A stretch of 64,000 bases of DNA from Oryzias latipes (lineage: Eukaryota; Chordata; Actinopteri; Beloniformes; Adrianichthyidae): the NCBI RefSeq assembly GCF_002234675.1, contig NC_019876.2, positions 24,267,371-24,331,370 of the forward strand, given 5' to 3'. Each line of letters begins with the position of its first letter. The first letter of the stretch is position 1. A model generated the notes under the pieces. That model was not told the DNA's origin, did no database searches, and saw nothing but the letters and a program-made list of their open reading frames with translations. The position numbers and the translations under genes were made by a program. Shown here piece after piece: positions 2-32,174 of this stretch.

Positions 2-3000
2 AGGTCAAAGTGTGATTCTTTTCACTCAAGTGTCCAATCAGCTAAAAGAAGAGAAGCTGCTGCAGAAGCTGCTGCATGTCAAGAGGTTTTGGCAGTGTTG
101 GAGGAACAAGAAAAGGAAGCAGTTGAACTTCAAAGGCTGGAGGCTGAAGATAAGGAGCGTCTTGTTCAGTTTGAATCAGAGAAACAAGCTAGACTTCAGG
201 CTATACAAGACAAACGTAGAAAACTTGAACGACTCGAAGAAGTCAAAAGGCTAAATGCTGCTAAAGCTAGAGTAGAAGTCTACGACCAAGCAGAAGTTTC
301 CCTCATACAAGGTAACACTAAAAGAGTAAGTACTTCTCAAAAATTTCCTTTGACAAAGTCATCATCTATGCTTCAAAGACCAAGACCTCCTGTGATTCCT
401 AAGTCTTTTCCAGCCCCTGTTCAAACACTTGATGCCTCAAGTCCTCCATTTATTCCACAAGCAATCACATACCAAATGACGACACCCCTAACAACAACGA
501 CTCATATGCAAGACAGTGCAAACTTTGTTAGTATTTTAGCAGAAGGCATAAGTGCTAATCGTCTTCCAACACCTGAGCCCGCAGTTTTTACTGGAAATCC
601 TTTGAAATTCAAAGATTGGCAAGTGTCTTTTCAGACACTAATAGACAAAAAAAATATACCAAAGAATGAAAAGCTGTTTTACCTTCAAAGGTATGTAGGC
701 GGTTCTGCAAAAAAGGCTGTAGAAGGATTTTTCATGCTCGGAACAGAGGCTGCATATGACTCAGCGTGGCAGATTTTGGAAAAACGATTTGGTGATCCAT
801 TCATCATAGGGAAGTCTTTCAGTGATAAACTCTACAGTTGGCCAAAAATAAGTTCAAAGGATGCACATGAACTTAGAGAATTTGCAGACTTCCTCCAGAG
901 CTGTGAAAAGGCTATGTCACATGTAAAGACCTTGGAAGTTCTCAATGACTGCAATGAGTGCCAAAAGATCTTGCTCAAACTTCCAGATTGGTTAGTTTCC
1001 AGTTGGAACCGCAAGGTTATGGAAACCAGAGAAACCTTTCACACGTATCCAAGGTTTAAAGAACTAGTGGACTTCCTCTCAAGAGAAGCAGATCTTGCTT
1101 GTGATCCTGTATTTTCAGTACAAGCATTAAAGAGTGTGGAAGGAGAAAAACCCAAACAACCAAAATATATACCAGTTCAAGCTAAGACTCTGTTCACAAA
1201 CACAACAGAAAGAAGTAACCCACCATGTGCATTTTGTAAACATTCAGGACATTTCATCGCAGAATGTAAAAAGTTCTGTGAAAAGAATTTGCAAGACCGT
1301 GTTAAGTTTGTGCAAGCAGAAAAGCTCTGTTTTGGCTGTTTGAAGGCTGGCCACCAGTCAAAAAGGTGCTACAAAAGAAGTACATGTGGAAAATGTCAGA
1401 AGAAGCATCCCACCTGTTTGCACAATGATGACTTTAAAGAGCAGCAAAGGTCAACACTTCAAAATCCAAAGGATAAAATAACAGAAAATGAAAACACGAA
1501 GAAAACCACTGAAGCAGCAACATCAAACAGAGTGATACAAGAAAGTCAAATTTCACAAACCTCCTCCATAGTACCAGTTTGGGTATCATCCTCAAAGGAA
1601 CCAGATCGAGAGATTCTTGTTTACGCATTATTAGACACCCAAAGTGATACTACTTTCATTTTAGATGAAGTAGCACAAGATCTCAACACGCACAAGGAAA
1701 ATGTAAGTCTGCGTTTGTCCACAATGTCATCCAAGTTAGCAAGTATTTCATGTCAAAGGCTAACAAACCTACAAGTAAGAGGATACAACTTGGAAAGAAG
1801 AATCTCACTGCCACCAGTCTTCACACGAGAATATATTCCAGCAAATAGATCACACATCCCAACATCAGCTACTGCTCTAAAGTGGACTCATCTGGAAAAG
1901 TTGGCTGACAAGATCCCACCTTTGCTGTCTTGTGAAGTCGGCCTTCTTATTGGGTATAACTGCCACCAAGCCCTTCAACCAAAGGAGATTCTGCCTGGTA
2001 AAGAAACTCAGCCATATGGTCAACGAACTGATCTGGGCTGGAGCATTGTTGGCTGCTCACAATCCTCAAGTGATTGCGTTGACTCTATAGGAGTCAGCCA
2101 CAGAATAATAGTCTGCCAAGTAACACCGTCTGCACAGTCATCAGTTGAACTCAGGAGAGAAGTAAGCTTTGCATGTCAAACTCAAATAAGAGAAATCACT
2201 TCAACAGAAATTATCAGAGCATTAGAGTCAGATTTCTCAGATCAAGCATCAGATGTTAATCAAGTCTCTCAAGATGACCTTCTCTTCTTGTCAAAGGTAA
2301 AGGCAAGCATCAGGCAGAAAGAAGATGGCCACTATGAACTCCCACTGCCATTCAGGGAGGACAAGCCTGAGCTTCCAGATAACAAAAGTTATGCACTGCA
2401 CAGGTTAGCCTCATTAGAGCGACGGCTGCGAAAGAATGAACAGTACTTCAAAGATTATGTTCATTTTATGAATGACATAATATCAAGAGGAGATGCTGAA
2501 AAGGTTCCACATTCTGAGTTGGATAACCAGCCTGTATGGTACATTCCACACCATGGGGTTTACCATCCACACAAGCCAAGTAAGATCCGTGTGGTGTTTG
2601 ACTGCTCAGCTAGATACAAAGATGCCTCTCTAAATGACCATCTTCTTACTGGGCCAGATCTCACAAACACCTTAGTTGGTGTGCTTTGCCGGTTCAGAAA
2701 AGGTCCAATAGCTATCATGTGTGATGTTGAACGGATGTTCCATCAATTTCATGTTGTAAGAGACCATCAAGACTACCTCAGGTTCTTGTGGTGGGAAAAT
2801 GGAAATCTAAGCTCCGAACCTGCAGTATATAGAATGAGAGTACACCTGTTTGGAGCTGCCTCATCGCCAGGCTGTTCTAATTTTGGACTCAAATATTTGG
2901 CATCACAGGGCCACGGAACCTTTAGCAAAGAGGCTATCAATTTCATTCAACGAAGCTTCTATGTTGATGATGGCCTAATAAGCTGTGAAACTCCAGCTGA

Positions 3001-5563
3001 AGCCATACATCTGGTGAATGAGGCAAGAGCTCTATGTAGAACTGGGAATCTTCGTCTCCACAAGTTTGTCTCTAACCATCCAGAAGTCTGTGCTGCAATA
3101 CCACCTGCAGAACGTGCACAGAGTGAAGACATAAACATGGCTCTTGGTGAACTTTACATCGTGCGTGCTTTAGGTGTCCAGTGGTGTGTTGAAGTTGATG
3201 AATTCCAGTTCAGAGTTATTGTCAAGGACAAGCCCATGACAAGAAGAGGAGTTCTTTCAACAGTTGCTTCAGTCTTTGATCCCTTGGGATTTGTAGCTCC
3301 TTACATATTGCTTGGGAAGCAAATTCTTCAAGAGCTCTGTAAAGAGAAAGTGAGCTGGGACGAAGACCTCCCAGAGCAAATCAAGTCTCGATGGGAGTAA
3401 TGGCTGAGAGACTTATCCCAACTGCCAACAATCAGGATACCAAGGTGCTACTTATCTTCAAGCTTTGGCAAGTTCATACAGTATGAACTCCACAACTTTT
3501 CAGATGCAAGTTGTAATGGATACGGATCCTGTTCATATCTCCGAGCAGTAAGTGAATCAGGAAAGGTGTGTTGTTCACTTGTAATGGGAAAGGCAAGGGT
3601 GGCCCCCACCAAGCAGATCACCATACCAAGACTGGAGCTGTCAGCGGCAGTAACCTCAGTTCGGAACAGTGATACTGTCAAAGAGGAACTTGAGATTGAA
3701 AATTTGGATGTGTACTTCTGGACAGACTCAAAGGTTGTTCTTGCATATGTGAACAATGATGCAAAGAGGTTCCACACCTTTGTAGCCAACCGCATTCAGC
3801 GCATAAGGTCGAGCTCAGAACCAAAGCAATGGCATTATGTCAGTTCAGAAAACAATCCAGCTGACCATGCCTCAAGGGGGTTAACTGCATCACAGTTAAG
3901 AGAATCTAACTGGCTAACGGGTCCAGATTATCTCTGGCAACAGACACTTGAAATGCAAGTTGGTGAAGAGGAGATGGTGGGAGTTTTGGAAATATCCGAC
4001 CCAGAGCTTCGCAAGTCTTGTGTCAACACTGTGAAAACAGAAACGGGTTCAGTTCTGAGCCGCTTCACCAAGTTTTCAGACTGGTCTAGAGTTGTGAAAG
4101 CTGTTGCCAGGCTGAGAAGATTTGTCCAAGAACGTAAGGGAGTACAACCAAGATCAAATGAGACAAGCAGTCTTGAGGAAAGGCGACAAGCCGAACTGCT
4201 TATAATTAAGTTGGAACAAAGAGAAGCCTTCGCAGAAGACATAAGGAAATTAAAACAAGGAAAAGTCAACTCTCTTAACAAACACAATCAGTTATACCGT
4301 TTAAATGTTTTTCTTGATGACGACGGAGTCCTCAGAGTTGGAGGAAGGCTTTGCAGATCAACCCTGGACTTTAGTGTAAAACATACAGCTATACTTCCCA
4401 AAAGGTCTCATGTATCATCCTTGCTTGTGAAACACTATCATGAGCGTGTTTGTCACCAGGGCAGAGGAATGACCATGAATGAACTGCGAGCAAATGGGAT
4501 ATGGATAATTGGATGTGGAAACATGGTCTCCTCACATATTTACAAATGTGTGAAATGTAGGAGATACAGGAGAAATACAGAAGTTCAGAAGATGGCTGAT
4601 CTGCCAAGAGAGCGGACGGAAACAACCCCTCCTTTTACATATTGTGGCCTTGACTGTTTTGGTCCATTTATAGTAAAGGATGGAAGGAAAGAATTAAAAA
4701 GATATGGCCTCTTGTTTACTTGCTTGTGCTCGAGAGCTGTTCATATTGAGACACTGGATGATATGACGACTGATGCTTTCATAAATGCATTTCGAACCTT
4801 TGTGGCAATCAGAGGACCAGTTCGCCAACTAAGGTGTGATCAAGGCACCAATTTCATGGGAGCCAGAAAGGAGTTTTCTGAGTTGCTCAAGAAAGTGGAC
4901 CCAGAACGTCAAAGGGCTCTTGGTTGTGAGTTTGTGGCAAATTTCCCATCTTCAAGTCACATGGGTGGAGTTTGGGAGCGCCAAATAAGAACGATCCGAA
5001 GTATTCTTGCAGTCATGCTTGACAAGACAGGAACCAGACTTGACACTACATCTCTGAGAACTTTTCTCTATGAAACAATGGCTATAATCAACAGCAGACC
5101 ATTAACTGTGGAGCACCTGAATGATCCCACCGGACCAGAGCCTCTTACACCAAACCATATACTGACTATGAAATCTTCAGTCATACTGCCTCCTCCTGGA
5201 CAGTTTTGCAAAGAAGATTTATATCTGCATAAAAGATGGAGAAGAGTGCAATTCCTGGCCAATGAATTTTGGCAAAGATGGAAGCGAGAGTATTTGCTAA
5301 ACCTTCAACAACGTCAGAAATGGCAAAACTCAACACGAAACCTGAAAGTGAATGATATTGTGATTCTACAAGATGAAAGCACACCAAGAAATGAGTGGAA
5401 GCTTGCTAGAGTCTTACAAACCTATCCTAGTCAAGATGGCATCGTACGAAAGTTAACTCTACTTGTCAGTGAGACTACACAGAATAAAGGAAATTCACAC
5501 ACTAGACTACTGCATTTAGATAGACCTGTTCATAAGGTTGTAACGCTTGTAGAAGCAGAGTGA
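2..5563 (+). pseudogene. BEL/Pao gag-pol polyprotein, interrupted by one in-frame stop
   Basis: One reading frame runs from base 2 to 5563 and is broken only by a TAA at 3398-3400; the frame is the same on both sides. Counting from base 2, a charged coiled coil covers about residues 15-90 and the DUF1759-like region about 190-365. CX2CX4HX4C knuckles start near residues 409 and 443. A protease motif DTQS lies near 545, and the reverse transcriptase YVDD near 987. After the stop come the A17/RNase H region, an HHCC zinc finger (about nt 4432-4560) and an integrase core with Asp at 4652 and 4838 and Glu at 4976. The basic C-terminal region contains WQRWKREY. The protease has Gln where most retropepsins have Gly. 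The start codon is outside the window. The frame is otherwise undamaged, so this looks like a recent copy. Confidence 0.9.
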
Positions 5564-25524: not shown

Positions 25525-25722
25525 AGTGTGGGTGACATGGCCTATTTTAATAAGCCAAAATATAATAAATAGTCTCTATTTCATGTTGCGATTGTATTTA
25601 ATATTTTTCGAAAAAGAATAAATAGCGAAAAACGCGATATAAACAACGAGGACGGCCGCCGGCTTCACGCATTCCGCCGACTTCGCGCCGCCATGTTTGT
25701 GACGTAACGAAAGGCAGACAAC

Positions 25723-25953
25723 ATGGCTAGCACCGATAGCGAAGCACAGAGTGATGCTACCTATTAGCGATTTATCATCAGATGAACAGAAAGATGAAGA
25801 GGAAAGTTGCGGAGATTATCATGATGATGAGTCACTTTTGCAACCGTATCGATTCGAACCCTTTTGCGAAAGTGAGGAGGATATAGCAGAAAGTAGTAGG
25901 TCTAGTGATGCCGATGACGATAGCCAGCATGAAGATTCGGCTAGACTCCAGTA
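25723..25953 (+). pseudogene. P2X7-ballast-like gene, exon 1 with 5-bp deletion
   Basis: It is nearly identical to exon 1 at 27466-27710 but lacks GTCTC after GATGCTACC (near 25759), which shifts the frame into a stop at once. The homologous DNA ends at about 25950, short of the splice donor. The later exons are absent. Confidence 0.85.
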
Positions 25954-26197
25954 AGTCTAAAAAATGTATAAAATTAAATTACTCCACTTACCCTAAAATA
26001 TACTCAAAATGTCCCCTTTTGGCCTAATCTAAACAAAGGTAAACACTGGTTTTCAACCCAATTTACAAAATAAATGTCACAAAATAAAAGTTTCCCAGAT
26101 ATTACTACTCTTTAGTTAACAAAGTCACTGTATACCATTAACAACTGTGGAACATTAACAGTTTTACCTGTTTGAACCAGTTTGAAATCTTTTCTCG

Positions 26198-26211
26198 TGC
26201 GCGCGCGCGCT

Positions 26212-26240
<29 letters not shown>
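26198..26240. repeat. (GC)n-(CA)n microsatellite
   Basis: CGTGCGCGCGCGCGC is followed by about 13 CA units. It lies in the part of the small Kolobok copy that is unrelated to the large copy. Confidence 0.95.
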
Positions 26241-26242
<2 letters not shown>

Positions 26243-26533
26243 CAGTTTACTCACGGTACCGGCACCTCAAAAGCAAAAGAAAAAAAAAACGTTGCAGGCC
26301 TGTTGCTTCTCTTGCAAAACATTGAGTGCGTTGAAATACTCCAGTTGGATCCAAGGACAACAGAAAACACGACTACTTCGCCTCAATGTGATCCATCGTG
26401 ATGCACACTAGCTTAGCAGCCTCCGCTCCCGACTCCAGCGCCGTCCTCTCCGACCCAGAAAACGGCTCGCTCGCTTCCAGCTCACCCGCCTTTCCTCGAC
26501 TCAGAAGCCAAGATCCTCCTCCCAACTCTCCGT

Positions 26534-26737
26534 TCAAAATTCTTCGTTTGTGTCCCGGTTTTTGTCCCTTCGAAAACGCAGACTTCTCTCCTGCAGATCT
26601 GGAGGGAAAAATCCTTCGCCGTCCACCTTCTTGAACTTTCCCCTTTTCAGCAGCGTTTCTTGTTTTGGGAATTTATACACAGATACACTTTCACTAGATG
26701 TATTGCTACATCCAGCTGCCACACAACGACTTGGCAT
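26534..26737 (-). pseudogene. THAP-domain exon, N-terminal part only
   Basis: From ATG 26737 the frame encodes MPSRCVAAGCSNTSSESVSV and YKFPK, the N-terminal C2 half of a THAP zinc finger. It is almost identical to 30625-30523. After about residue 31 it runs into unrelated sequence, so the CxxH half and AVPTIF box are missing. Confidence 0.8.
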
Positions 26738-27028
26738 GTTGATGATTAACAGATTTAAACACGAGAGAAACGAAGACTACCTGTTTTGTTTACATGCTGT
26801 CCGAAGCGGAACTGCGAAAGTCAACGCCTTTCGTGACGTCACAGGTCATATCGATGTCACTTCCAGCCTACGCTCTTAGCGGCAAATTCAAATCTCTGAT
26901 TCCTTCAAAAGATGTCTATTATTCATATGCTTCGGATTTTTTTCGACGCTAACTATTGGTATCAATAGAATCAGCGTTTAAAGGGCTTTTTTATTTGACA
27001 AAGTTGTTCAAAGCATGGCATCCACACT

Positions 27029-27264: not shown

Positions 27265-27465
27265 TTAAAGTGTGGGTGACATGGCCTATTTTAATAAGCC
27301 AAAATATAGTAAATAGTCTCTATTTCATGTTGCGATTGTTTTTAATATTTTTCGAAAAAGAATAAATAGCGAAAAACGCGATATAAACAACGAGGACGGC
27401 CGCCGGCTTCACGCTTCCGCCGAATTCGCGCCGCCCTGTTTGTGACGTAACGAAAGGCAGACAAC

Positions 27466-28550
27466 ATGGCTAGCACCGATAGCGAAGCACAGAGTGATGC
27501 TACCGTCTCTATTAGCGATTTATCATCAGATGAACAGAAAGATGAAGAGGAAAGTTGCGGAGATTATCATGATGATGAGTCACTTTTGCAACCGTATCGA
27601 TTCGAACCCTTTTGCGAAAGTGAGGAGGATATAGCAGAAAGTAGTAGGTCTAGTGATGCCGATGACGATAGCCAGCATGAAGATTCTGCTAGACTCCAGA
27701 ACACGGCATGGTTAGTTGCCTTTCGTGATTTTGGAACCTACGTAGACTAGGCCTTGTGTATACATCTGTAAAAGTACACGCAGAATTGAAAAGTCAATCT
27801 AATAGGGCCTAATGGTGAAATTTTTTCAGTGATTCCTAACAGTATATATGTAGGACAGCTGGATTCAGTTTGTAAGTTACAAATGAATTAGATGAACTAA
27901 AACTAAGTTTTTGTCATAGGTGCCAGTGTCAATGTTGTGCTGTCATGCCTCTAGTGATGGAGTGTATTTGCTGCCGTGAAATAGATGAAGTCCAAGGAGA
28001 AATGCTGCGCAGAGGGGTAAATGCATCCTGCATCACTGAAGTGGATAGTTTCCAGACCTGCTGCCTGAATCCTGATGTTTTGAGGGTAGCATACTATGCT
28101 TATGTTGATCATCATGGTAGAATGGAAGAAGCTACATCACATGAGTGAGTATACTCTACATGTCGAAGGTTGACACAGAATAGATCTAATTACCAGGGTA
28201 TACATTGGTAGCATAGCAATTGAGTTAAAGTTAATTTAGTAGCTGGTAAAAACAGACTCTCGGTCAGGCCTAGGATATGATATATTTATTTACTTCCATC
28301 AACAATAAAAACACTTGTATGTAAACACGTCAATATATTTCAAACACTGACAGACATGTAATCAAGTCTTTATTCTATTTTCAGAAGATATCTATATATC
28401 GCATACAGGCAGTTTGTGAGGCTGTGCTGGGGACATCTTGGGAGAGCGGTTCGTGTTACCCTGCCATCCTGTGCTGTGAAAAAAATACGGTCAACTTTTT
28501 CCGCACCAACTGGACAGTATGTTGGATTTTTGTATCCTGCATTAGACTGA
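27466..28550 (+). CDS. P2X7-ballast-like Cys-rich protein, three exons, inside Kolobok
   Basis: Exons are 27466-27710, 27920-28144 and 28385-28550, with GT-AG introns and one open frame of 211 residues. Residues 1-80 are acidic and Ser-rich. From about residue 82 a Cys-rich domain begins (WCQCQCCAVM, ECICCREI, SCITEVDSFQTCCLN). Then come AYRQFVRLCWGHLG and LPSCAVKKIRSTF, ending with GQYVGFLYPALD. Cys spacing and the final blocks match the cytoplasmic zinc-binding ballast domain of P2X7 receptors; there is no channel part or membrane segment. Similar standalone genes are commonly labelled P2X purinoceptor 7-like in fish. Its position inside the TTAA borders says it is transposon cargo. The role is unknown; it could bind metal and nucleotide as in P2X7 or act in transposition. 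Its stop lies one base from the transposase stop. Confidence 0.75.
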
Positions 28551-28551
28551 T

Positions 28552-30625
28552 TCAAGTGGACTTGTATCTGGATTTGAACTGTGAGACAGCAGTTTCTTTG
28601 GTTGGTCTTTGGTATTCACCACTCAATGGAGGAGGCACATCTCTGACATCCACATCTTCTCTGGGGTGTACGAGTCTGTCCAGGACATCCTTGATGATCT
28701 CATTGACATAGTCTGAAATGTATTGTGGAACACATATAAATGTATATGTATATTTTTACCTATACCAAACAAATGTACGTGTATTCTAAAAATTTACATG
28801 CCTGTTCATTGGAGTGAGCCAATACATATAGAAATAAAGCAATATATTATAAATAAAGAATCGTGTTTTTTCATATAAATAATATGAACATAGGTTTATT
28901 GAAAAATGGAAAAAATACAACTTACCAAATGTAGGTTCTTCTAAAACTTTCCTCACTGTGTGTCCCCCTTTCTTCCACTTTGGCAGGGACACTGCATACT
29001 GGAGTTCACCTGATCTGGTACTTTGTTGAGTCCGCCCACTATTTTCATTGAAATGCATCACTGCTAACAGTCCTCTATTAAAAAAAATATGTATTGACAT
29101 AAACATTCACCTGAAAATACTAACATCTTGAAAATATGTTACGCTAAAGACAACTATTTTTTCTTTGATAAGCTGATAAAGCAATGTTTCAAGTACCAGC
29201 ATATAACATGTATGTACCTGCAAAGCTGGCCCTCATAAGAAAAGGCATACATTTTCGGAGCGTAGTGGTTCAAGAGGCTGTGGAACGCCTCCAGAGAGGA
29301 GGTCTGCTCCCGGTTTGATGCCTTTTTTAGATCTCTGATGAGGTATGTTGTTGTTGCCAGTGTTTCTAATTTCACCATCAAGGTAGAACCTGTAAGCAAG
29401 CAAATTGGATGTACATCATCCAAACTTACTTCTACTTCTACAGATGACTCCAATAAAAAAAAAGATACGGCTGTGTAAAATATACAAAACATACTTACAT
29501 GGTTTCAACCACTTCTTTCTAGCTGCTCTTCCTCTCAGCCTTTTATGCTCACATTTAGGGAATAACTCATTGTTGTGCATATGAATATTTACAATATGAT
29601 TCAGCACAGACGTCCACTTGGCTTCAACTAGGTTTGGCTCTGCTGAATCTGTTGACATGACTGACCAATAAAGGTGATTGATTATGCTGTCAATCCACTC
29701 TTTCAAGTCTGTGCAGTCTTTTTCTTTGGAAAGTGCCACAAGTTTTTTTCTGAGACCTGGAAATAATAATAAATATATTGGATATTTTACAACTGGAACA
29801 ACTTCTGATAAAGAAAAAAGACTTGAGGAAATGAATAATACCCTTCGCAACATGCCAAACGTCCAAAAGGTGTTGAACATCTGGCAAATTCTCTCTGATC
29901 CATTTCCGTAACTGGACATGCCTGTCTGTTATTATCACATCTATATCTAGACCCTGTTGTGTTCCCAAGAAATTAACTGATCTTATGAAGCCCTCCTTTT
30001 TCATATGCGAGGCACCACCAACTTCATTGCTCATAATTAACTTCATTGCTAATTAATTGTGTGAAATGTGTACAGGCAACATTTAATTTAAATGAAGGAT
30101 TATTCAGTATAAAGATCTGTTACTCTGTATAATAGGAAATGTATAATAGGGAAATTTTTATATCAATATATATACCGTATATATATTAAACGTTAAACTC
30201 ACTCTCTTTTGTAATAAATACATTATGTAATAAACGTTAAACTCACTCTCTTTTGTGCCAGCTTTTCGGTCACAGATTTTCTCTTTTTGTACTGACTCCT
30301 GCCAGTGCTGGTACTGGGCGTTTCTGTTTCGGACGTTGCCACTAGCGATCTCTTGAAAATGGTGGGGATTGCGTTCGGTTTCAATACTTTTTTATATCTG
30401 ACATGCATTCCAATATCTTTCATGAGCTGTGGTGTTTCTTCAAAACAGTCTGCCTCAAAATGTTCGCTGCATAAAGTTGACGAAGCAGTTGGCCCAATTC
30501 GCCCTCGTTCGCTGAACTTGTTTTGTCCATTGTTTCAGCAGCGTTTCTCGTTTTGGGAATTTATACACAGATACACTTTCACTAGATGTATTGCTACATC
30601 CAGCTGCCACACAACGACTTGGCAT
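28552..30625 (-). pseudogene. Kolobok THAP-transposase gene, internally deleted
   Basis: The THAP exon starts at ATG 30625 (MPSRCVAAGCSN, YKFP, then WTKQVQRTRANW). The second half (LCSEHF, NAIPTIF) is in a different frame, indicating a frameshift near 30500. Splice-bounded exons follow at about 30046-29842 (IVTDRH-like VIITDRHVQLRKWI and DVWHVAKG), 29756-29499 (KEWIDSIINHLYWS, LFPKC), 29389-29218 (SSLEAFHS), 29074-28926 (MHFNENSGRTQ) and 28712-28552. The segment that should link the THAP exon to 30046, carrying the first catalytic block in relatives, is absent. Family membership is from the order of these blocks. Confidence 0.8.
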
Positions 30626-30943
30626 GTTGATGATTAACAGAGAATTAACGAGAATTAACGAATTAACGATGATTAACGAGAGAAACGAAGACTACCTGTT
30701 TTGTTTACATGCTGTCCGAAGCGGAACTACGAAAGTCAATGCCTTTCTTGACGTCACAGGTCATATCGGGGTCACTTCCAGCCTGCGCTCTTAGCGGCAA
30801 ATTAAAATCTCTGATTCCTTCGAAAGATGTCTATTATTCATATGCTTCGGATTTTTTTCGACGCGAAATATTGGTATCAATAGAATCAGCGTTTAAAAGG
30901 CTTTTTTATTTGACAAAGTTGTTCAAAGCATGGCATCCACACT

Positions 30944-32174
30944 TTAAAATATTGGCTCCGAGAGAGCTGGGGTGAAAACCGTCAAGGTCGATAAAAAGAG
31001 GGCCGATTCCAAAAGAGATTAAAATTATCAATAAAACCAAACCTGAATTTGCAACAAGCGGACTGCAGCCAGGTGTTCAGGGAGAGGATTCTGCTGAATC
31101 TAGAGGATCCTCTAGAGAGTGTGGGGATGGGTCCAGAAATTAAAACAGTTTTCCCAGTATTTTTTAAATAGACAAAGAGGTCCAGAAAGTCCAGTTTTGT
31201 TACCTCTGACTGCTGCAGTGTGGTGTCATTAGTCCCAACGTGGACAATAATCCGGGTAATGGTGGATGGGAGGAAATGCAGAAGGTCTGGAAGTTTTTGA
31301 AGAATGTCCATCACTTTGGCTCCTGGAAAGCATCTGGTGACTGCATTAAAGGATCTTATATTCCTCGTGATGGAGTCTCCGATGATCAAAGTTGATCAAA
31401 GAGTGGTAGAGGCGGGGGGTTGTGGGACTCGACAGGTGTGGCAGCAGAGCCACCCCGCTCCTCCGCCGCTGTTCTTGGGACTGCTCCTGTGGCGGGGGGG
31501 CGTTTTTGGGGCCGCACGGATTGTGATGGATCGCGGCCGGTGCACCGTTCAGTCACCGCGTCCCGGAGGAGTTTTATCCTCCTGTCTAAAGCTGCTACTC
31601 CGCGCGCCGGGCGCCGAGTCTGAGCCGCTTCCGGCGTTCGCTTCCTCGCTTGGGCCCCGGTGAAGGAAACGGCGGCCGGGCTGTCTGCACCAGATCCCCC
31701 AGTGTGGTTGCCACTTGAAGCTGTGGGAGAGCATTTCGCTCCGCTGGGCAACCGTGCCGATGGGGCGGGAAATAGTCCTGGTACACTGCCCGCTCCAGCT
31801 ACGACCACGTCTTCGTTTCCCAGAACGGTGAACCGATTGGAGAGGGTGAGCTGGGGAGGCGTTGATGGTGGTGTCGGCCTCGTCTGGGGTCTTCTTGCAC
31901 CCCGAACAACAACCTCAGCCCACGATGGATGGTCTCTCGGAGTGGAGCAGGAGGAAGGCCGCACACATTCGGCGTCTCACGGAAGCGTGTCCTGGGCGAC
32001 CGTCAAACGGGTGATCACCTGCGACTGCTTAGCAGCGAGTTGATAGGCGCTGGAGAGGAGAGTCTCTTTCTCGGTGAGTGCATCAGCGAGTTTTACTAGT
32101 TCATCCTTAAGCTTAGTGACAGTTTCATTCATTTGGTCACAGCAGCAGTTTTGACAAACCGTAGAAACCGCCAT
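30944..32174 (-). pseudogene. LINE ORF1: coiled coil, basic linker, SGNH esterase
   Basis: It starts at ATG 32174 with a Cys-containing segment and a coiled coil (MNETVTKLKDELVKLADAL). A TGA at 31979-31977 interrupts the frame, which continues unchanged as a Pro/Arg-rich linker to 31386. A one-base frameshift at about 31385-31400 leads to the esterase: IIGDSI (Ser block), VHVGTND (Asn block) and, in a third frame, DGFHPSSLG near 30960-30985 (Asp/His block). The Kolobok insertion begins right after it. Esterase ORF1 proteins are typical of CR1/L2 LINEs. Confidence 0.85.

Follow-up and report, generated by a model that had tools for sequence, protein, structure and literature searches.

The window, a stretch of 64,000 nucleotides of the medaka Oryzias latipes (assembly GCF_002234675.1, contig NC_019876.2, positions 24,267,371 to 24,331,370 of the forward strand), contains at positions 27269-30943 a Kolobok-type DNA transposon of 3675 bp with TTAA repeats on either side (Table 1). 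Two genes lie tail to tail between its ends: on the plus strand KolX, which encodes a protein similar to the cytoplasmic "ballast" domain of the P2X7 receptor, and on the minus strand a damaged transposase gene, their stop codons being separated by the single base 28551. With high confidence, in both identity and anatomy, this is an internally deleted copy of a two-gene Kolobok element of the Kol0 type. An earlier reading made from the nucleotide letters alone (the sequence-only reading) had proposed TTAA borders and inverted ends, a three-exon gene at 27466-28550 with 211 open codons that resembles the P2X7 ballast domain without any channel, and stops one base apart; the element ends, the splicing and the profile matches described below bear out each of these points.

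When its three exons are spliced, the KolX frame of the window copy is open for 211 codons, and three alternative splicings, giving 209-210 amino acids, are likewise open. The protein matches the Pfam profile PF20478 (P2RX7_C) with 65.4 bits (E 8.4e-18, cut-off 23.5 bits); this is its sole Pfam match at E up to 1, and no P2X channel domain was found in it. Against P2X7 chains in the PDB, the best E value is 5.4e-7 for the window protein and 9.1e-8 for that of C1, a complete copy of the element located elsewhere in the genome. Five of the seven zinc-site cysteines align in the HMMER alignment, and C498 and C499 (in what is taken here to be the rat P2X7 numbering) do so only after a gap has been moved by hand. 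The N-terminal part is strongly acidic (26 D/E against 4 K/R in the first 80 residues of the C1 protein), and by inspection there is no recognisable catalytic motif.

The window KolX differs from those of the four other long copies at two positions, R160L (codon 28392-28394) and N189K. R160 aligns with rat P2X7 R546, which is among the guanine-nucleotide contacts and is reported to be one of two that are kept in invertebrates (Rump et al. 2020, PMC7016195). Among the equivalents of R546, H547, R574, R578 and K583, two (R546 and R578) are found in the C1 protein and, by column, in the other three copies. The window copy has only R578 of these five rat guanosine diphosphate (GDP) contacts. A full P2X7-type guanine-nucleotide site is thus present in none of the five proteins. 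Because of R160L at the R546-equivalent position, the window KolX, open as it is, is probably not fully normal.

The complete form of the element is represented by C1 (5017 bp), one of five long copies found in the genome. The search covered this one genome (734 Mb, 25 contigs) and scored only the best candidates, so that all counts are lower bounds. The other copies are C2a (4684 bp), C2b (5069 bp), C10 (5215 bp) and that in the window; the five have common ends but differing flanks, and are 98.3-99.3% identical in pairwise comparison. KolX is open in all five, the transposase only in C1. There, the minus-strand gene has nine exons, all eight introns have GT-AG borders, and the spliced frame is open for 750 residues. 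Its product matches the THAP domain (PF05485, E 2.5e-17) and a Mutator-like transposase family (E 1e-9) in Pfam; no match was obtained in NCBIfam. The AVPTIF-type box of the THAP domain reads AIPTIF. The DDE-type residues were assigned by eye to LAGDGRSD, ITDRH, DVWH and SLEAFH, and between the DxxH and the E are H, H, C and H residues that, also by eye only, would suit an H2CH zinc finger.

Compared with C1, exons 2-4 are missing from the window transposase, and 2 nt have been lost from its THAP exon. Judged from these lesions, the window copy is an internal deletion derivative of the 5.0-kb element and is predicted to be transposase-dead. Interrupted gap repair is a common source of internal deletions, and such an origin would suit the AACTTCATTGCT that is found in duplicate where the deletion was joined. 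In C2a, the end of transposase exon 1 is short of 5 nt and exon 4 of about 265 nt; the C2b gene is interrupted by one stop, and in C10 there is a stop as well as an insertion of 1 nt. C10 also carries in a transposase intron (L012, about 2890-3115) an insert of about 230 nt with what look by eye like hAT-like ends, CAGAGGTGGGCA...TGCCCACCCCTG, flanked by CGCTAGAG repeats.

The boundaries of the element are well defined. Its ends, AGTGTGGGTGACATG and CATGGCATCCACACT, form an imperfect 15-bp inverted repeat, and the termini read AG...CT, in keeping with the 5'-RR...YY-3' pattern of Kolobok elements, in all five long copies. The TTAA duplication is likewise present in all five, as well as at the located ends of short copies. 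Put together, the two flanks of the window copy give 436 nt that match two uninterrupted repeats (C22, C18) over their full length at 96%; these are empty sites, and a true insertion into a dispersed repeat is thereby shown. Just inside the ends, two near-identical 18-nt repeats in inverted orientation precede the two start codons, and the two promoters may therefore be alike; TGTGACGTAACGAAAGGC is presumably CRE/ATF-like. The flanks of the window copy recur widely in the genome. In the right flank, positions 30982-31392 encode on the minus strand a sequence that resembles GDSL-lipase/OSK but, at E 1.7e-5, stays below the cut-off. Such sequences occur in esterase-bearing long interspersed nuclear elements (LINEs).

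Table 1. Features of the Kolobok element and of its short relative in the window (positions of the window; copy C1 serves as reference for the deletions)
Feature	Position	Strand	Remarks
Short non-autonomous family member	25525..27028	+	own TTAA on both sides; 1.5 kb
Left TTAA target-site duplication	27265..27268		
Left terminal inverted repeat	27269..27283	+	starts 5'-AG; 13 of 15 positions agree with right end (read on C1)
Subterminal repeat TGTGACGTAACGAAAGGC	27441..27458		directly before KolX start codon; inverted relative to 30741-30758, 2 of 18 positions differ
KolX exon 1	27466..27710	+	acidic N-terminal part
KolX exon 2	27920..28144	+	most zinc-site cysteines of the ballast domain
KolX exon 3	28385..28550	+	end of ballast domain; stop 28548-28550
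Transposase exon 9	28552..28712	-	stop 28554-28552
Transposase exon 8	28926..29074	-	
Transposase exon 7	29218..29389	-	likely catalytic E (SLEAFH, by eye)
Transposase exon 6	29499..29756	-	
Transposase exon 5	29842..30031	-	second catalytic D region and DxxH (DVWH, by eye)
Deletion junction	30020..30053		exons 2-4, with first catalytic D, gone relative to C1; duplicated AACTTCATTGCT at joint
Transposase exon 1	30247..30625	-	THAP domain; 2-nt deletion between 30492 and 30493
Subterminal repeat GCCTTTCTTGACGTCACA	30741..30758		upstream of transposase start
Right terminal inverted repeat	30929..30943	-	ends CT-3'
Right TTAA target-site duplication	30944..30947		

Where else in the genome does the ballast domain occur? 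With the PF20478 profile, five of the six scored places reach the cut-off, all in the five long copies. (The sixth, C11:10520905, has 16 bits, below the cut-off, and was taken from its frames as a chance match.) A search with the KolX protein gave at least 113 matches, among which, by hand count, five to exon 2 and five to exon 3 are all within the long copies. The remainder consists of 101 exon 1 matches at about 94 places, five of them the long copies, and two chance matches with E above 6. About 89 places (a hand count and a lower bound) thus retain KolX exon 1 without the ballast exons. With the 560 residues of the transposase's catalytic part as query, at least 30 matches were obtained, all in the same five copies. 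The sequence-only reading had suggested asking whether ballast homologues sit between TTAA borders with a THAP transposase, and had named single-copy, syntenic homologues without linkage to Kolobok termini as the pattern that would speak against it. All five loci have the linkage to TTAA and to the transposase family, and the contrary pattern was not seen in this genome: among the candidates scored, no ballast-domain locus was found outside the TTAA-bounded family; more distant Kolobok families were not sought with a profile. In viral contigs, seven stretches fit the pattern, none of which encodes a relative.

Of the short copies, 24 were examined, 23 from elsewhere in the genome and one lying in the window itself. 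In 21, both ends were located, with TTAA on each side; three lack one end in the stretch examined. Eleven copies retain the region of the THAP exon, the eight complete ones among them being 1.24-1.43 kb long, and six of the eleven (L013, L014, L058, L059, L060 and L065) have an open THAP-only frame of 141-142 residues. In the other 13 (L066-L077 and window 25525-27028), of about 1.5 kb except for one of 1.26 kb, the middle is replaced by about 0.7 kb of foreign-looking filler (less in L071). Pfam searches with three frames of the window short copy gave a THAP piece only, below cut-off. From the KolX start, 15 of the 24 have an open frame of 78-103 codons that is acidic like KolX. Since these copies have spread without a catalytic core or ballast exons, the proteins that move them act in trans, and the identical score shared by 32 of the exon 1 matches is a sign of a recent burst. 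The window short copy ends 240 bp upstream of the long element, and both seemingly lie within one dispersed repeat.

Is there evidence that KolX is maintained by selection? The sequence-only reading had contrasted a damaged transposase with an undamaged cargo gene and had proposed a test for purifying selection across copies. The damage is indeed greater than it supposed, exons 2-4 being gone, and the KolX frame is indeed open, but R160L and N189K set it apart from the other copies. If lesions are assumed to fall evenly by length, the probability that KolX is spared from all seven is 0.18 (0.22 for six), and the contrast between an intact KolX and broken transposases is therefore no evidence of selection. 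Among the five copies, changes private to one copy are 9 amino-acid-changing to 0 silent in KolX and 25 to 9, plus 2 stops, in the transposase; shared changes are 0 to 2 and 6 to 1, respectively. With a neutral expectation of about 0.75 amino-acid-changing, substitution types in both genes look neutral and show no constraint on KolX. A Fisher value of 0.018 for KolX was not used; it rests on two shared changes and is one of several tests (pooled, 0.41). Coding columns vary less than non-coding ones, both for the two genes together (54/2889 versus 75/2086, P 0.0002) and for KolX alone (11/636 columns, P 0.019), which points towards constraint. This contrast is not relied on, because repeats and deletion junctions among the non-coding columns are poorly aligned and the ratio of amino-acid-changing to silent changes shows nothing; for shared changes only, coding and non-coding columns give 9/2889 and 10/2086 (P 0.36). 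For exon 1, the set can be widened to 28 copies (5 long and 23 of the 24 short ones, L065 being without exon 1). Here, private changes are 20 amino-acid-changing, 2 silent and 1 stop, and shared changes 1 amino-acid-changing and 3 silent; 12 of the 23 private changes, including both silent ones, are in one scrambled stretch of L014.

What would the second gene do for the transposon? In its complete form, the element carries a nine-exon transposase of the THAP/DDE type and, convergent with it, the 211-residue KolX, with stops one base apart. The transposase would cut and join, while KolX would help or regulate it. It is plausible, if still tentative, that both proteins are produced together and act in trans, and that KolX, stabilised by zinc and itself without catalytic activity, aids or regulates transposition. 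Since the zinc cysteines are largely kept and three of the five nucleotide-site residues are not, KolX is expected to serve as an interaction module built around zinc and not as an enzyme that depends on nucleotides. Polyadenylation signals lie beyond the opposing stops: AATAAA at 28833 and 28852 for the plus strand, and its reverse complement TTTATT at 28369 and 28285 for the minus strand. If transcripts end at these sites, they would overlap by about 0.5 kb, and there is some chance, though a doubtful one, that they restrain one another. A competitor role has been suggested for Xenopus relatives (PMC6004289), and the THAP-only frames of the short medaka copies are possible competitors of the transposase as well. 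That the element brakes itself altogether, with acidic exon 1 proteins titrating the partners of KolX, THAP-only proteins occupying the ends and overlapping transcripts damping both genes, is improbable.

Because the two genes are paired and convergent, and near-identical subterminal repeats precede both starts, KolX is best regarded as a resident transposon gene, that is, the element's own second gene. The "cargo" label of the sequence-only reading was accordingly dropped. Had a Kolobok instead picked up the tail exon of a host P2X7 gene, the resemblance to vertebrate P2X7 would be explained, and short copies do have foreign-looking filler of about 0.7 kb between their ends. Yet a single exon is reported to contain the ballast domain of P2X7 (PMC7016195), while KolX is spread over three and has a start codon of its own. 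The searches of this genome brought up no P2X gene with a ballast domain, the standalone domain is described from sponges and cnidarians (PMC7016195), and Kol0 elements with KolX are reported from vertebrates, annelids, cnidarians and sponges (PMC9587614), all of which makes capture from the host very improbable. It is just as hard to credit that KolX is a Nanor-type gene domesticated by the host and sits inside a transposon copy by chance. Nanor proteins are standalone fish ballast proteins, one of which has been reported for medaka (PMC7016195), and the window KolX is open despite its broken transposase. However, nearly identical copies occupy five TTAA sites with differing flanks, both genes are open in C1, and the 9:0 private changes of KolX give no sign of constraint; a gene kept outside transposon ends, as expected of a domesticated Nanor, was not found, since the ballast loci found are all inside the element. 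A piggyBac-type element would also duplicate TTAA, but the THAP and Mutator-like matches, the lack of any piggyBac match at E up to 1 for the 750-residue protein (five families listed) and the termini, whose RR...YY pattern is given as that of Kolobok as against piggyBac (PMC9587614), make this reading barely conceivable.

A less easily dismissed alternative accepts that KolX belongs to the transposon and denies it a job: a passenger whose open frames in five copies merely reflect their youth. The near identity of the copies, the chance sparing of KolX from seven lesions and the neutral-looking substitutions all suit a passenger, as does the wide spread of short copies without ballast exons. 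The last point, however, is uninformative as to need, as the proteins can be used in trans. Both shared KolX changes are silent, though there are only two, and KolX is reported across the Kol0 lineage from sponges to vertebrates (PMC9587614). A jobless KolX is unlikely, though not negligibly so. Several further points weigh against the preferred reading of a Kol0-type element with a resident, useful KolX. Constraint on KolX is not supported, as seen above; a single genome was searched and only its best candidates were scored; the Kol0 assignment was made by gene content (an element encoding KolX with a ballast domain) and not by a tree; and the left subterminal repeat of C2b is inexact. Finally, two linked markers near invertebrate ballast genes have been described as an "ancestral synteny" (PMC7016195), which would argue against a mobile origin. 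One of these markers could be the transposase itself, and the synteny of 2020 may be nothing other than the transposon's own convergent gene pair. The same may hold for a tick protein that is reported to join a THAP-like domain to a ballast domain (PMC7016195).

The P2X genes of this genome were also inspected. P2X channel exons (PF00864) are found at six other places, and when about 10 kb on the 3' side of the last P2X exons there was scanned with three motifs, no ballast motif came up. As a control, two of the three motifs were recovered in all five long copies, whereas WC.C..C was found in none because an intron splits it; the PF20478 search thus carries more weight than the motif scan. Neither of them revealed a ballast-tailed P2X gene in the assembly, and P2X7 may be absent in this fish, or may have lost its tail.

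How, then, does the medaka element compare with known systems? The closest are the Kol0 elements such as Kolobok-1_XT, in which KolX was described as a ballast-fold protein (Kojima and Bao 2022, PMC9587614). They share with it the TTAA duplications, the RR...YY ends, a DDD/E-type transposase with DxxH and a second protein with a ballast domain; what is added here is the worked-out structure of one family, with its convergent genes, mirrored subterminal repeats, one copy with both genes open and many short derivatives. The Kolobok transposases of Xenopus (2018, PMC6004289) are similar in their THAP domain with an AVPTIF-type box, their DDE-type core and their short elements, for which mobilisation in trans is assumed, but the main text of that paper mentions neither KolX nor P2X7. 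The ballast domain has been found across animals (Rump et al. 2020, PMC7016195), and Nanor and the other standalone ZCD proteins of that work resemble KolX in being short and in having the domain without a channel. Its main text makes no mention of transposons, whereas the medaka ballast loci found are transposon copies, and Nanor is considered a likely domesticated KolX (PMC9587614). Fish genes called "P2X7-like" or "nanor" may thus be transposon genes. That such standalone proteins are largely of this kind, as the sequence-only reading supposed, holds for all five loci of this one genome, while the word "largely" leans on the same publication.

P2X7 itself has the zinc-site cysteines, the CIT and PSC...IR...GQY.GF.YP motifs and a similar C-terminal end in common with KolX. 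KolX differs in having no channel, a ballast domain that is split over exons rather than contained in one, and fewer of the GDP-contact residues. P2X7 is proposed to be the product of a fusion between a P2X4-like gene and KolX (PMC9587614). The shared ancestry of P2X7 and the transposon, also suggested by the sequence-only reading, is supported by that published statement, and the present data are consistent with a ballast domain taken from a KolX gene. The family offers a clean, recent example with both genes and includes a complete copy, in a laboratory model fish whose genome is assembled to chromosome level; the role of the ballast domain before P2X7 becomes testable. The link between P2X7 and transposons has been in print since 2022, and the medaka copy family is a further clear example of it.

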